Assembly (NCBI GenBank): GCA_004369045.1
Contig: ML213509.1
Span: 812,858-876,857 of the forward strand
DNA length: 64,000 bases
Source: Heliocybe sulcata
Lineage: Eukaryota; Basidiomycota; Agaricomycetes; Gloeophyllales; Gloeophyllaceae
Reading direction: 5' to 3'
The translations under genes and the position numbers were made by a program. This document shows positions 4,500 to 64,000 of this stretch, piece after piece. The notes under the pieces were generated by a model. That model had not been told where the DNA came from, searched no databases, and saw nothing but the letters and a program-made list of their open reading frames with translations. Positions within the stretch are counted from its first letter, which is position 1; each line of letters starts with the position of its first letter.

Positions 4500-4571
4500 T
4501 CGGATATGGTGTAATGGTTAACATTACCGCCTCTCACGCGGTAGCTCGGGGTTCGATTCCCCGTATCCGAA
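4500..4571 (+). tRNA. tRNA-Glu (CTC), copy 1
   Basis: The cloverleaf folds fully: acceptor TCGGATA with TATCCGA, a 5-bp anticodon stem ACCGC/GCGGT around the 7-nt loop CTCTCAC, which places CTC at positions 34-36, and a T arm GGGG-TTCGATT-CCCC. There is no intron. The gene is identical over all 72 nt to the copies at 25753 and 29522. Confidence 0.97.
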
Positions 4572-4911: not shown

Positions 4912-7293
4912 ATGGCGGACCAGCTACTCGCTGCACCTGCAAAATATCCCTTCTCTCTCACGTCACTCGCAGACTCGGCATGGAATTCTTTCCGCGAAGC
5001 AGCCTTCAAGACTGGCTGGAAACCAGTCACTAGGATTGCTGAGGCTGCAGTTGTAGCGTGAGCAGGCGGTTTTGAATTCGACAAGTGACCATCTAATTCT
5101 CTCGCAGCCTGATGAGGAATATAACGCAAGGTCAACTGCGTATCTCAGCATGTGACCAGGTCTACACATTCCCTGCTCCCGGTTCGAAGGAAGAGGCAGA
5201 GAATCCAAGGCCAGATCTCAAGGCGGAATTACGCGTAGTGAACGACGTGTTCTGGGTCAGACTATGCACCATGAGTGATCTTGGTTTCGCGGAAGCATAT
5301 ATGTATGGCGATGCCGAATGCGACGATTTGGTATCCTTGTTTCTGGTGAGTATCTGGATTGTTGGCAGAAGTGGTCGGCCGATTGCGCGAGGCGACATAA
5401 CTGCGTCGCAGAATATACGCTATAGTAGGCCAGCTCGTCTAAATTATCTTCTCTACTTTCCATGTGTGCCTGTTGAGCTCACTGTACCTCTCTTCTATCC
5501 GTACTCTAGGTGTTTATTTACAATCGGGAGAATATCGCTTCCATGAACTCAAGAGCCTCCTACTTCTTCAGCATACCCCAAAAGTTGACATCGTACCGCT
5601 TTGTCAACAGCATCGGGAACTCACGTTCCAACATCTCGGCACATTATGATATCAGCAACGACATGTTTAAGGGTAACTATCTACTACGCATATACATTTG
5701 CACGGCAAAGCTGAATATATTCGCGTTCATAGGCTTTCTGTCCGAAGATATGACCTACTCCTGCGCCATATTCGACGACCTGGACGGTGACCTGGAAGAC
5801 AGGACGACTGTTTACAGTGCACGGAAAAGCGATGAAGGTCTCACGAGTCTAGGTCTCAAACTGAAAAGCTTGAGTCCCGGTTCTTCTGGGGACAATTCCT
5901 ACGCATCGACCCCGACCCTGCCTTCGTCTCCCTTGTCAAAGTCCCAGATGGACTTGAAGCAAGATCCTCTTCACGCTGCCCAGCTGCGCAAGTTGAATCA
6001 CATCATCCAAAAGGCTAATATCCTCCCTGGCCAGACAATCCTCGAGATCGGCAGCGGCTGGGGGTCGATGGCGATTCTGATCGCGCGTGCAGTCCCGGGC
6101 ACCACCGTTCACACATTGACTTTGTCTGTGCAACAGCGTGAGCTGGCTCTCGCCAGGGTGAAAGAGGCAGGTATTGAGGAGGGGAGAGTCCAGGTCCACC
6201 TGCTGGATTACAGGAACGTGAAGAAGCGTGACGAATGGCGCGGTGCTTTTGATAGGGTGATCAGTATCGAGATGGTGGAGGCGGTCGGGGGAGAGTTCTT
6301 GGAGGAGTACTGGAGCGTGATTGATTGGGCGCTGAATCCCAAGACGGGTGCGGGTGTGATACAGGGAATTACTATACCCGAGTCAAGTGCGTGTCTCCGC
6401 AACATTCTCCCTCTACTTTGGCCATGCCGATTTTTTCACCTCGGATTCCTACTAACACGGAGTCAGGGTTCGAAAATTACCAAAAGGAGGTTGACTTCAT
6501 TAGAAAATGGGTGAGTTTTTCGCAGTTATACAGTCAACCAAATAAGAGATTAATTTGTTCTTTAGAGTAAGCGGATATACTTCCCCACTTGTCGCATTTT
6601 GCTGAGGCGCTCTGCTAGTTTTCCCCGGCGGATTCCTCCCTACCATCTCGCTTTTAATAGAGACTATGCAGAAGGGGTCTCAAGGCAGGCTGATCGTAGA
6701 TTCAGTACGTGTGCCTCTATGCCCTCTTAAGTTCATCATCAACTTCCTATTGCCCTATTGTGTTGGTCTCGGGAACGCGCATACAGCCGCTTTAATTGGA
6801 ACGGTACATTGTTAGGAAATATGTTCTGACAACCTTGTTATCCTCCAGGTCTCAAACATCGGTCCGCATTACGCAAGGACACTCCGGGAATGGCGTCGGC
6901 GTTTCCTCGAGCGCTTCGATGACGTGATTGTCCCGGCCCTCATCAGAGAGTACCCTAGTGTCATGGGTGGTAAGCGAGGACGGGAGGAAATCGAGGTCTT
7001 CAAACGCAAGTGGATATGTAAGTGTACTCCTTAGCAGCTTATAAGATCCTCAGAAACTGACTTCTGCGCTGCAGATTATTAGTAAGTCTGTCATCGCTGT
7101 CTGGGACCGTCTGAAGGGTCTGAAGAATGGTCTTAGTTGCTACTCCGAGGTTGGCTTTACGACAAGGACGCTTGGAGGTGGGTATCTATAGTCCTAGTCA
7201 GCATTCTCGTTTCACTGACGTTCTCGATTAGATCATATCATCACCTTCACGAGAGAAGGCTACAAGGGGTATGGTTGCCAGGTCTTCGACTGA
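4912..7293 (+). CDS. cyclopropane-fatty-acyl-phospholipid synthase
   Basis: The SAM-dependent enzyme adds a methylene bridge to, or methylates, unsaturated acyl chains of membrane lipids. Eleven exons close in frame to 536 residues: 4912-5057, 5108-5345, 5510-5672, 5733-6386, 6467-6510, 6566 alone, 6619-6704, 6849-7017, 7075-7081, 7137-7177 and 7232-7293. An N-terminal CFA domain ends in ISAHYDISNDMFKGFLSEDM and TYS. A Ser/Thr-rich insert of about 60 residues follows, then the SAM-binding motif EIGSGWGS near residue 287, then the family landmarks IEMVEAVG, WIFPGG, NIGPHYARTLREW and a terminal Tyr-rich stretch with SEVGF. The 1-nt exon at 6566 and the 7-nt exon at 7075-7081 are both needed to keep WIFPGG and the Tyr-rich motif in frame. 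The closest known relatives are fungal CFA synthases; sphingolipid C9-methyltransferase is a more distant alternative. Confidence 0.9.
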
Positions 7294-25752: not shown

Positions 25753-25824
25753 TTCGGATACGGGGAATCGAACCCCGAGCTACCGCGTGAGAGGCGGTAA
25801 TGTTAACCATTACACCATATCCGA
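25753..25824 (-). tRNA. tRNA-Glu (CTC), copy 2
   Basis: Reverse-strand copy, identical over 72 nt to the genes at 4500 and 29522, with anticodon CTC and no intron. Its 3' flank has no long T run; the first T4 stretch (TTCTTTT) lies about 25 nt beyond the gene. Confidence 0.97.
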
Positions 25825-29521: not shown

Positions 29522-29593
29522 TCGGATATGGTGTAATGGTTAACATTACCGCCTCTCACGCGGTAGCTCGGGGTTCGATTCCCCGTATCCGAA
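29522..29593 (+). tRNA. tRNA-Glu (CTC), copy 3
   Basis: Identical over 72 nt to the other two copies, with anticodon CTC. It is followed about 18 nt downstream by TTTGTTTTTGTTTT, which can end pol III transcription. It is in inverted orientation to copy 2, 3.7 kb away. Confidence 0.97.
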
Positions 29594-58800: not shown

Positions 58801-61800
58801 CTGGATATGCGGTCTCCAACCTCTGATAGAAACCTATGATTGATTCTTGAAGCACTCCTTCACGTAGGTGTGCGCCAGGATCTAGTGCTTTGATGGCATG
58901 GAGTAATGCGTCGACTTTCTGCCAAGGGAGGACCTGCGTCTGGAACTGCCGAACTTCAGACCAGAAACCATGCACCCGTGGTACATTATAGACGTCCCTG
59001 AGCAACGCTGGCCTTTCTTGAACCATGCGAGCGGTTGTGCTTTCGAGGAAGGACTTCAAAATGGCTATCACACTATTCGAAGTCTGACCAGTAAAACGGT
59101 CTTCAAGACTCGCTTGCAGGTCTATGTGCTCCAAAATAGTCTTGCGCCTATCCTGTAGAAGCTCGATCGTGCATGCTTTGATCGCAGCTGGATCGATTGG
59201 AACGTCGGGCACATAGAGATCTAAGAGCAGTCTAGACAGGCCAATCCAGCCTCGTCCTAGGGCTTCGAGAGTATCAGACCTGCATTGCGGCTGGTCGGAC
59301 AGTGATAAGACTGCACGACGAAGGTGGCGATCGAAGCAATTTTTGAGTTCGGTATGACCGCTAGTGTCAAGGAAGGAGATGAAACGTCGTGCAAAATCGG
59401 GGCTCCTGAGGTCAAGGGTCCTCTGCAGTGCGAGGAGAGTATGTTGATGCGATGCATTATCCGCATTAGACAAAAGGGAAGAGATGACCTTGATGAGAGC
59501 GAGTCAAACTAAGTCTGAAGGGACGTGTGCAATCTACAACGCACCAATAACACTGATTGAAACTGGATAGTGACCAACTGAGAAAGACGTGGCATAGCAT
59601 TAGAGCGATGTGAGTGCACTGCTCTTCTGTGCCTGCGAATGGACGCTTCATACGTGTTGATGCAGGATAAAGGTCGACGTCTTCCATCGCTACGTAATCG
59701 TCTGCATGTTAAACAAGCCAAGTGGAGAATTACTAGCCAATACTGACCTCTTCAGGATGCTACAATATAGTTCCACCGGTCGGAGCAGGATTGACGGGCC
59801 ATCGAAGTTCTAGCGATGCATTAATAAAGGGAGATCCGGGTTTTCAGTCCACTGACATGGTCCTCAAAGGAGGTGCGCCACAGTGCCTGGAGCCACTCCA
59901 TTTGCGCAGCGGCCAGAATGAATGGTCGAGCTGCGGAGGTTCACGGCATTAACTGATAGCGCATATGATCTGATGAGTGTGACGCACAAATGCCCGCGTC
60001 TATGGTCCAAATGGCGTGCTGATAGGGCAGTATCCGAAGGAGTGACTGGTCAGGATAGACGCAAACCATATCGATCGCCTGCTGCACATCATGCAGTCCA
60101 TCCACCCTCGAGAAGTCTCCTATTGCGACAAGAGCACCCAATTCCATCATAAGCAAAGAAGGATCTGCAGGCTGTTGCCTTATTCCATTCTTTCCGCTAT
60201 TCCCATCAGGCAGACACTGATGATATCTCAGTATCTTGTCTAATAACAGGAGGTGGAATTCTCACCTTCTTCAACTGTTCAAAAACCGATGTCGATATCT
60301 TATCAGGCATCATAGAAGGATCAGCATCTAGTGTGTATAGAGCCAACGCTGGGAATACGCTGACACGTTCTGTGACATTTTAGCCTCAGGTCCAGGTAAC
60401 AATGCATGTGAAGCCAACCTTCCACGAGATTAATTCGCCCTGAGTCGCACATTACTTCATTCACTCTAGCAATATCCTCTGGGGCTGCTCTGATACCCAA
60501 CAGGTATGACCAGATGCGGGTAAGCCCGAGACCCGCTTCCATAGCAGTAGCATTCTCAAGGGCCCTTGCCGCTTCCATGACATCTACAAAGGCTGGTGAG
60601 GTGATGTGCACAGCATCCTTGACCCATTGCACGACAGCACAGGCGCTGGAATAGTCAAAGTGACCGTCGCTAGTAATTCTGGAAAGGTACCATGCTATCT
60701 CCTGAAGTTGAGCCGCGATCTCGATGTGGTCCTGTGACGATGCGTCAATATAACTGCGAGTAAAACTAGCATCACTTCAGCACACCGTTGCTTCCTGCCA
60801 CAGGGAGGGCTTGAATGTCTCGAAGATGCGATATGCGAGTGTACGTATTGCCAGCATCAGCTGATTCAGTTCTTGCAGCCCACGGGGTGCATTGTGTCCC
60901 GAGGCCAACTCCAACGTTGATATTGATACTTTCTGGGACTCTGCAGTCATCAGATTCGGATTTGCGAATAAAGCATCGTACTGGAGTGCGCCCATCAGAT
61001 TGAGTACATGGACGGTCGTCTCTCGCTCAAGACGTTCTCCGTCGTCCTTCGTCATGGACTCCACGCTATGATTGAGAAACATGTCTATAGACTGAAACGG
61101 AAGTCAGCCAGCCGTCACATTCCTAGAATACGGGGAAAATCGCACCTGAGTCAACAGCAACGCCCGGGGAGACTTCCAGTCAAGATGATATCTGTCAATG
61201 AAATGTGAATGCAGCTGTTGAAGAAGGCCGGAAGCGGATTGCTCCAACAAAGCCGCAATCCATCTAGGCTTCTGAATTTGAGAGTCAGGGACAAAAGAGG
61301 CCAACACGCGTAAGTATTGCCGTCCACGGGTCGGCGCGAACGTGTAGCCGAAGAAGCAGGTCAATGCTTTGCTTGTAGCTGGTTGCAGTTGGGAGGATAG
61401 AGGCGACAACGGCGCATCACGCATAACAGATGTAAGGCGAGAGTCAGATTGCACCAAAGAAAGCGACGACGCATTGGCTCTGAACTGTCCTGTGTTGTCA
61501 ACTTGATGGATGCCTCGCCGATGAGATTCATGCGAAGCATGGTCGCATTGCAAGTCTCCTTCAGTAGAGTGGAGGGACTCCGGAATCCGGAAGTATGAGC
61601 CTAATCCACGTTGGTCCTTCCCCTTGGCGTGCGGAGACAAAGATATCTCCACACCACGGTTGCGCATGGCGCGGGATAGCTCACCATTCTGGGGATCAAC
61701 GGACATGAATAGTCGAAAGGAGGGATGAGGGACTATAATCTCGAGTTCACCGGCCACTTGCCCCTTCTCGTTCAGCGTCAATACACCGCCAGGTTCGCAT

Positions 61801-64000
61801 AACGAGTTCAAGCGGTCCAATACAGAAGGATTGCAAAGATTGGCACCGTCTAGGAGTAGCCACTGTCCGGACTTCATGGCTTGCACCAGGGGTCCGTCCA
61901 CCCAGATGAAGCGGCCATTCGTGTGTCCAGCTCCGAGGAAGTCGTCAACAGCATCACCAAGAAAAGACGCTTCACGGCTGAGTTCCTGATCACCAATATT
62001 GCGGACAGCTTCCAGAAGACTGCGCGACGATTGAAGAGCCGAAGCCAGTGCTCGGGGGGAAGATGTCTCCCGGAGTGCCCTGTTCACCGACTGAATCGCA
62101 CCGGTTAAGGAAAGGGCAGAACCTAGAGATATACTAGCGACGCGGGAAAAGAGCCCTACGATCTGGGCAACGATTGCCCTGGCACGGGATTCCTGATCGT
62201 CTTGCTCGAAAGCGCCCAGAATGTCAGAGATGTCTGTGGCGCTGTTGACGGCTACTTCATGGAGCTGATTACCAGTCAAACTGGACAACAATCTGACCAT
62301 AGTTGATTTACCAGCATCGCGCAGTCCCGTCAAAATGACTAACCAACCGAGGTCTACGCAACTTCCGATAGTCTCCAAAGCGTCCATGCTCGTTGGAACA
62401 ACCGCCGGAGTGCGAGGGTTCAACAGGGGTTTGCGCCGAGGTAAGATAGCATGACCGATCTGAAGATACTCCGGAGTGAGCGACCAGCGAGGAACTCTGT
62501 CTGCTCGAACGTGCATTTGGAAGACTGTCTCAAACAGGGCGGAAGCTGCATCCCTATCGCTCTCAGACCTGAACCTCTGCAAATATACGGTGCGAAGATG
62601 CTCCATGGGGTGTAAGGATCGCTCGCTGCCTCGGAGCAAATCGCCCCATCGAATCACATCTCTCAGATTGAACTCCCAAGGCGCTCCAGCCGCAGCGAAG
62701 GAACGGCGAAGAGAAACCTCCTCGTTCATCCGAGTATTGTAAGTGATCATGGCTTGCAGCATGTCACAGTCATAACCAGGGAACATATGCTTGCAGACAA
62801 GTAGAAGATCTTGGCGTGACAATTCTTCGATGTAGACCTTGGTGAACCTGTTTAGGAAGGACTTGGGCAAGCCCTTTCTACCACCACCCTGATGCACAGG
62901 ATTCTGTGCAGCAAAAATGCGGAAATGAGGATGCCGAGAAAAGCTCCGTCCAAGCTCTGGTATGTAGACAGTGCCGCGATGATCAAGGACGGCATTCAGA
63001 CCTTCTAACACGGCTTGAGGAGCGAGATTCATCTCGTCTAAGAGAACCCAAGAGCCTTCCTGCATTGCCTTGAGAAAGTCGGCCTCCTTCCATGTGAATT
63101 CTCCGGGTCGGCCTCCTTCCACAGGGAGATCAGAGCCGAACAAGTCAATTAAATCACTTTGATCGCTGAAATTTATACGATACAGCTTGAATCCGCAGAT
63201 ATTGGCCAATGCAGTAACGAGACTAGTCTTGCCTACACCGGGGCTGCCTTCGAGGAGGACAGATTTCGGCAACTGGCAAGCGCGGACTACTCTCATAGCG
63301 TTGTACAAGGTAGTTGGGGCCTGTAGGTTGAAACCATGTCTTCGGACTGGAAGCGGCCCCTTCTGAATGGCGAAGGATCCAAGCTGGACGAACTGAGAAG
63401 CGTCATATGCTGGAACTTGCGCCAGCGATGGATCGCTGGGCAACATTACAAGACTCCGCAGCTTGACTATAGCTTCTTCCTTCAACCGTTGGATGGCTTG
63501 TACTGACTGTGAAGCAATTTGCGGAAGTGAAGCCAATCCATCAAGTACCGTCATATGGGCTGCATGATGCTAAGAGACGTCAGCTCCAATCTAGTGCTAT
63601 CGCGGCACCACTCACGAAAAGTTCTGCAGATGATACGGATGCTTCATCATTGTGCCGATAAGTGGAATTCAAGAAGGAAGTCCAAGCCTAGAGAACGATA
63701 TTAGCATAGGCCGCAGTCACGAACATGGGCCGCACCAATAGATCCCGCAAACCAAGTAAAGCACTATCACCGACTCTGTCTGCAATCCATGCGGCAAAGT
63801 CAAGCAAAGGGCCCGTATACGCTTGCAGGTGCTCATCTTGCCAAAGATTATGGACGATTTGTTCCAGGTCACGACGGTCCACAATAGGCGGCACCCATAT
63901 CTCGGTAAACCTATTTCGTAGAGCCGGTGAGAGCTCTTTTTTTCCATAGTCTCCCCCAGGGTTCATCGTCGCAACTAGCTGGAAATCAGGCACGGCTTTG
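52879..64000 (-). CDS. MDN1: midasin (MDN1/REA1), C-terminal two-thirds; 5' end beyond window
   Basis: MDN1 is the giant AAA ATPase that strips assembly factors from pre-60S ribosomes. About 3450 residues lie in the window. Exons: 64000-63736, 63687-63616, 63569-61146, 61091-60786, 60731-60419, 60369-60266, 60216-59988, 59930-59857, about 59809-59720, 59488-56562, 56507-56176, 56120-54554 and 54499-52879. The end of one AAA module (FQLVATMNPGGDYGKKELSP, then ALRNRF) opens the stretch. The next module has Walker A GSPGVGKTS and Walker B WVLLDEMNLAP, the last GLRDAGKST and WLLLDGANL. A long helical linker follows (YVPDVPIDP marks it), then a 350-residue Asp/Glu/Gln-rich region, then the MIDAS domain with its DDSRS metal site and IISDG. 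The splicing at 59490-59810 is not settled. Confidence 0.95.

Follow-up and report, generated by a model that had tools for sequence, protein, structure and literature searches.

A probable single-nucleotide exon in a cyclopropane-fatty-acid synthase-like gene of the basidiomycete Heliocybe sulcata

The closest described counterpart of the element discussed here is the 1-nucleotide (nt) exon of Fusarium CYP621A, which was published in February 2026 with support from 20 orthologues and 18 SRA reads, and which its authors term the first in a fungal gene (PMC12940212). Exons of this size have also been reported for the plant genes APC11 (PMC4674806) and VPS55 (PMC8831610), single-base exons have been described for mitochondria (placozoan cox1 and fungal mitogenomes), and 1-bp exons have been noted in annotations without experimental confirmation (PMC3064661); the annotation of micro-exons is discussed in PMC8056616. 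A literature search limited to open-licence PMC papers found no nuclear exon of 1 nt for any basidiomycete. Here we describe a candidate from Heliocybe sulcata, in a window of 64,000 nt of contig ML213509.1, by whose positions all features are numbered unless a contig is named. The window carries a cyclopropane-fatty-acid synthase-like gene (PF02353; 4912-7293, plus strand) modelled with 11 coding exons including the stop and a product of 536 amino acids. We propose that its sixth exon is the single A at 6566. Because the reading frame, the protein family, the in-genome paralogues, the splice-site strength, the intron length and an ab initio gene model agree, we strongly infer that A6566 is very probably a real exon.

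The likeness to the Fusarium case is close. Both concern a nuclear fungal gene in which AG-N-GT lies in a gap roughly double the usual intron length, both were found through a frame mismatch, and in both the base completes a codon of a conserved motif. The paralogues L003 and L004 serve here as length markers, the role that the intronless CYP621B1 had in the Fusarium study. The two genes are unrelated, and the CYP621A base is the middle G of a Gly codon (PMC12940212), whereas the base described here is an A that opens an Ile codon and is predicted from genome letters. The base in plant APC11 is also an A and is also needed for the frame, but it is 333 nt away from the exon before it and was shown by cDNA and by mutated constructs in protoplasts (PMC4674806). 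The 1-nt exon of VPS55 has a GTRAGT donor and was missed by annotation; unlike the present case, it is reported to be conserved across land plants with support from RNA sequencing and reverse-transcription PCR, and transcripts lacking the exon occur in some lineages (PMC8831610).

The case begins with the letters around the junction. Exon 5 (6467-6510, 44 nt) closes on the Trp codon TGG in the frame fixed by the upstream exon (TCA-A/GG-TTC, with the slash at the splice), and exon 7 (6619-6704, 86 nt) opens with TTTTCCCCGGCGGA, which needs one preceding base to be read as (N)TT-TTC-CCC-GGC-GGA, that is (I)FPGG. The gap between them (6511-6618, 108 nt) contains TTCTTTAG-A-GTAAGC at 6558-6572. 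With the A at 6566 as exon 6, the gap resolves into an upstream intron of 55 nt (6511-6565, GTGAGT...TTAAT...TTCTTTAG) and a downstream intron of 52 nt (6567-6618, GTAAGC...CTGAG...CTGCTAG). The lone base is thus flanked by the AG of a 3´ splice site and the GT of a 5´ splice site, and it is required for both the frame and the conserved motif: an NTT codon could specify Phe, Leu, Ile or Val, A6566 gives ATT (Ile), and only with this base as a 1-nt exon is RKWIFPGG obtained in frame at its normal spacing. Joining 6510 directly to 6619 adds 12 further residues (WFSPADSSLPSRF) before a stop, leaving a protein of 427 amino acids. A preliminary description of this junction had given the exon end at 6510, the A at 6566, GTAAGC from 6567 and the exon start at 6619, all of which proved correct on rechecking. 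It had also called the two intron lengths exactly the local norm, which agrees with the genome as a whole (median 56 nt, first to ninth decile 50-73 nt, from 462 introns predicted in 264 kb) but does not describe every intron of this gene, whose ten introns span 50-164 nt.

The spacing that A6566 produces was compared with that of distant relatives. A single-protein search of GTDB genome contigs and IMG/VR viral contigs gave no match. The synthase protein used as a tblastn query against plasmids gave 224 records, 12 of which were taken and 10 aligned (L011 and L020 were left out), and an alignment-based search provided the best 80 of 587 encoded relatives from GTDB genomes and three loci from IMG/VR contigs. 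The collection comprised 94 homologous loci (L010-L103, with L104 unused; 12 plasmid, 80 GTDB and 2 IMG/VR), and 88 could be compared, as one had no reading frame and five lacked letters around the motif. In all 88, exactly 12 residues span VDFIRKWIFPGG from its V to its final G, and the region is free of gaps in the ten plasmid-borne bacterial proteins aligned to the model. FIRKWIFPGG likewise aligns without a gap in five alignments to solved structures (for example with WINKYIFPNG in 6bqc).

Relatives within the same genome point in the same direction. There are eight PF02353 matches, one of them the gene in the window. Paralogue L003 (contig C5, minus strand) encodes DVDFIRKYIFP within a single exon; a 57-nt intron of its own (GTGCGT...TTTACAG) splits the Pro codon that follows, giving DVDFIRKYIFPGG. 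L004/L006 (contig C2) encodes DFMRRYMWPNS, also uninterrupted. The spacing in both is the one that results from the 1-nt exon, with Ile and Met, respectively, at the junction; neither has an intron at the junction codon, and intron positions around the FPGG region differ. The more distant L001/L005 (contig C22), which we take from its letters to be of the sphingolipid C9-methyltransferase type, has an intron farther upstream of KYVFPG. The PF02353 matches L007 and L008 showed neither IFPG nor VFPG. The shared spacing of L003 and L004 raises our confidence in the 1-nt exon and lowers it in an assembly error, which is considered below.

Splice-site strengths were ranked against 353 reference introns of 40-120 nt, each with flanking exons of at least 30 nt, a requirement that places the two introns beside A6566 outside the set. 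The donor at 6511 scores 8.46 bits (74th percentile), the acceptor at 6565 scores 7.7 bits (95th percentile) and the donor at 6567 scores 6.42 bits (30th percentile). We also enumerated single introns of at least 30 nt (GT-AG, GC-AG or AT-AC) with donors at 6470-6609 and acceptors no further than 6639. The FPGG frame survives without base 6566 in six of them, which combine donors 6515, 6533 and 6557 with acceptors 6606 and 6618; these add 1-19 residues from donors of at most 0.0 bits, and none of the six matches the family spacing. A broader ranking allowed one GT-AG excision or two in succession, each of 35-240 nt and within 6447-6704, nested pairs included, and scored the products by donor, acceptor and length together with a fixed cost per intron. 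Of the 19 in-frame products with FPGG, the one with the 1-nt exon leads at +4.0 bits; the second, at -5.7 bits, has the same 1-nt exon with the weak acceptor 6606 and inserted residues, and the rest score -9.4 bits or lower.

The mildest of the single-intron alternatives is a 104-nt intron (6515-6618) that begins at the second GT of GTGAGT and yields KWVIFPGG, preserving the frame and FPGG with no 1-nt exon and only one added residue, a Val. Tandem donors with a spacing of 4 nt are a known phenomenon, and introns of 144 and 164 nt exist in the same gene model. However, this donor (GTTTTT, 6515-6520, in the context TGA/GTTTTT) is, at -2.87 bits, weaker than every one of the 353 reference donors, and a donor of 8.46 bits stands 4 nt before it; 35 of the reference introns lack G at +5 and 21 begin with GTT, none with GTTTTT. 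The product ranks at -19.4 bits, 23 bits behind the 1-nt exon, the extra Val is present in 0 of the 88 homologues and in neither L003 nor L004, and the strong AG-A-GT would be left unexplained. We consider this intron disfavoured and its probability very small. The preliminary description had overlooked it in stating that without A6566 the frame breaks or the motif is lost, a statement that does hold for the direct join. Its claim that the base restores W-I-F-P-G-G is borne out by the frame, the spacing in 88 of 88 family members, the paralogues and the product ranking.

A gene model made with no protein evidence also places the exon at 6566. A simple hidden Markov model (HMM) for genes, trained on 264 kb of this genome (the window and L105-L124), chose the intron pair 6511-6565 and 6567-6618 under three of the four penalty settings; the fourth (-4/-8) gave no accepted plus-strand gene over the locus, and intron totals across settings with fixed penalties ranged from 189 to 638. 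A retrained HMM chose the same two introns, and A6566 is the only 1-nt exon among the 389 internal exons of the final run. Elsewhere in the gene the retrained model departs from ours, splitting intron 5346-5509, reading through 6705-6803 and ending at 7082, and it therefore supports the junction and not the whole gene model. Chance was assessed by shuffling the interior of the gap, with observed strength set at an acceptor of at least 7.5 bits and a donor of at least 6.2 bits. A 1-nt exon of about this strength arose in 0 of 40,000 shuffles. At 10th-percentile strength, 203 of 40,000 gave a 1-nt exon and 915 of 40,000 gave an exon of any length up to 28 nt that restores the frame. Across 527,820 positions (both strands of the 264 kb), AG-N-GT of the observed strength occurs once, at 6566, compared with 77 sites at 10th-percentile strength.

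Several points weigh against a 1-nt exon. The acceptor at 6618 is weak (3.6 bits, 14th percentile), although both flanking introns are viable in size and have recognisable donors and acceptors. The CTRAY branch motif, present in 37% of the reference introns, is in neither of them; a possible branch site, TTAAT, lies 12 nt before the 3´ end of the upstream intron, and CTGAG lies 13 nt before that of the downstream intron. The HMM was seeded with consensus introns, such that rare donors are somewhat under-counted, and it predicts eight further exons no longer than 8 nt, which are probably mostly false; with these other calls, the HMM on its own is insufficient. The homologues are distant from the model (24-39% identity, median 33). 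Their junction residue is Ile in 77 of 88 and Val in 11 of 88, but one of the two scan patterns held IFPGG, biasing the frequencies of Ile/Val and FPGG upward; the spacing before IFPGG was not fixed by the scan pattern and so is free of this bias. Against a profile of the homologues, the product of the 1-nt exon scores 385.0 bits, compared with 380.9 for Phe at the junction, 378.3 for the extra Val, 373.9 for one residue fewer and 294.3 for the skipped product, and the gaps of 4-11 bits between intact products are modest, giving support and no proof. Finally, the exon is predicted here from the DNA letters of one genome.

The last of these points bears on the possibility that the letters themselves mislead. 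An assembly error or a true 1-base deletion beside the junction would leave a single 108-nt intron (6511-6618) or a pseudogene allele. Exon 7 starts with the homopolymers TTTTCCCC, where one error would likewise open the frame gap, and the stretch occurs a single time in the 31.6-Mb assembly, so that the letters have no internal check. However, a missing T would place Phe where 88 of 88 homologues carry Ile or Val, and the model's eight remaining joints between exons need no correction. Introns of at least 100 nt make up 35 of the 462 predicted, which argues against a single intron of 108 nt, and an error would make an AG-A-GT of such strength a coincidence of the kind met in none of the 40,000 shuffles and at one site in 527,820. 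We regard this explanation as very unlikely.

How would a single base be spliced? We suggest that two ordinary short U2-type GT-AG introns flank A6566 and that each would be recognised by intron definition. The authors of the APC11 study favour intron definition with two introns removed in turn (PMC4674806). Successive removal is most likely here because one base cannot seat the machinery of a 3´ and a 5´ splice site simultaneously. Intron 6511-6565 probably leaves first, since its two sites are the stronger pair, and this would create TGG-A/GTAAGC, an intact donor that could then be spliced to the acceptor at 6618; the reverse order would also be workable. In either order, the predicted mRNA reads TGG-A-TT-TTC-CCC (W-I-F-P), restoring the conserved motif of the enzyme. 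The process would resemble that of fungal stwintrons, in which two short introns in one gap are removed sequentially, but a stwintron has one intron inserted into a splice signal of the other and leaves no base behind, whereas the synthase gap keeps one base (PMC9024468, PMC6616335). Two-step removal of nested introns is thus described in fungi, and a gap of about two intron lengths would suit it; a nested pair removed whole is nonetheless extremely improbable here, because complete removal of 6511-6618 breaks the frame and the nested GT-AG excisions all rank below the 1-nt exon. A recursive splice site, or zero-nucleotide exon, was also considered and rejected, as one base separates AG from GT. 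Out-of-frame splicing followed by ribosomal frameshifting or RNA editing is formally possible, but given a good exon it would be needless, and we assign it hardly any probability.

The single-nucleotide exon is most likely constitutive. An mRNA that skipped A6566 would keep 427 of the 536 residues and would probably be a substrate of nonsense-mediated decay. It could be imagined that the exon acts as a splicing checkpoint, with inclusion of the base, which would hinge on the two introns leaving in good order, deciding between the full enzyme and a truncated, decay-prone mRNA, an idea that we think improbable. Were it true, the efficiency of sequential splicing would tune the cyclopropanation of membrane lipids during development.

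The rest of the gene fits the family. Exons 1-4 lie at 4912-5057, 5108-5345, 5510-5672 and 5733-6386, and exons 8, 10 and 11 at 6849-7017, 7137-7177 and 7232-7293. Each of the ten introns is of the GT-AG type, and no internal stop interrupts the product. Exon 9 (7075-7081) is itself a 7-nt micro-exon, ATTATTA, between introns of 57 and 55 nt. It is required for KWIYYYCYSEVGF, which aligns without gaps to homologues, and for the conserved W-x-Y-Y-x-x-Y-x-E motif; omitting it gives a frameshifted C-terminus and lowers the family-profile score by 24.5 bits (385.0 to 360.5). The model matches Pfam CMAS (PF02353) at 188.5 bits, compared with a cut-off of 27, the family blocks EIGSGWG, SIEMVEAVG and IFPGG align between it and ten bacterial proteins, and it matches solved cyclopropane synthases, the best being 6bqc (E = 8.1e-31). 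By its sequence the gene is a member of the cyclopropane-fatty-acid synthase family and is predicted to encode an enzyme. The bacterial homologue stands directly behind a DUF1365 gene in the ten annotated loci among the 12 from plasmids (L010, L012-L019 and L021). Coprinopsis cinerea cfs1-cfs3 likely belong to the same family, of which the H. sulcata genome has at least three relatives, and cfs1 is reported to restore fruiting-body initiation (PMC8805025).

Three tRNA-Glu(CTC) genes with equal scores lie in a 25-kb part of the window (4500-4571, 25753-25824 and 29522-29593), the first of them roughly 340 nt before the start codon of the synthase. A long open frame on the minus strand (61107-63569) with AAA_5 and midasin AAA lid domains is part of a midasin-like gene. 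The gene structure is that of a fungus, and 28 matches to DUF6533, a family typical of Agaricomycetes, suggest that class; a search for the class II peroxidase extension domain gave nothing, as did its controls, and Pfam matches of 18 open reading frames of the window included no marker of a phylum. In another region covered by the HMM (L105:9105-10000 and L106:1-991, corresponding to C7:709105-710991), the program proposes a 2-nt exon near the 3´ end of a gene, after a 258-nt intron. We take this gene to be TAM41-like, and the 2-nt exon is probably false.

The synthase exon is a rare further case of a known kind. The preliminary description had held that few genes have such exons and that a fungal one would be notable; this overstates the novelty, as plants have such exons in APC11 and VPS55 and the Fusarium CYP621A exon precedes this one, which is thus not the first in fungi. 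It would add another fungal gene and may be the first from Basidiomycota. Genes of this sort will be truncated or frameshifted by annotation pipelines that impose a minimum exon size, and a screen for AG-N-GT in gaps of about two intron lengths between phase-incompatible exons should yield more cases. If the exon is real, single-nucleotide exons extend beyond APC11 and VPS55 of land plants and one ascomycete P450 family, with an independent origin in another gene and probably in another fungal phylum. This would favour the view that exons too small for exon definition can be spliced in genomes whose introns are short and recognised by intron definition.
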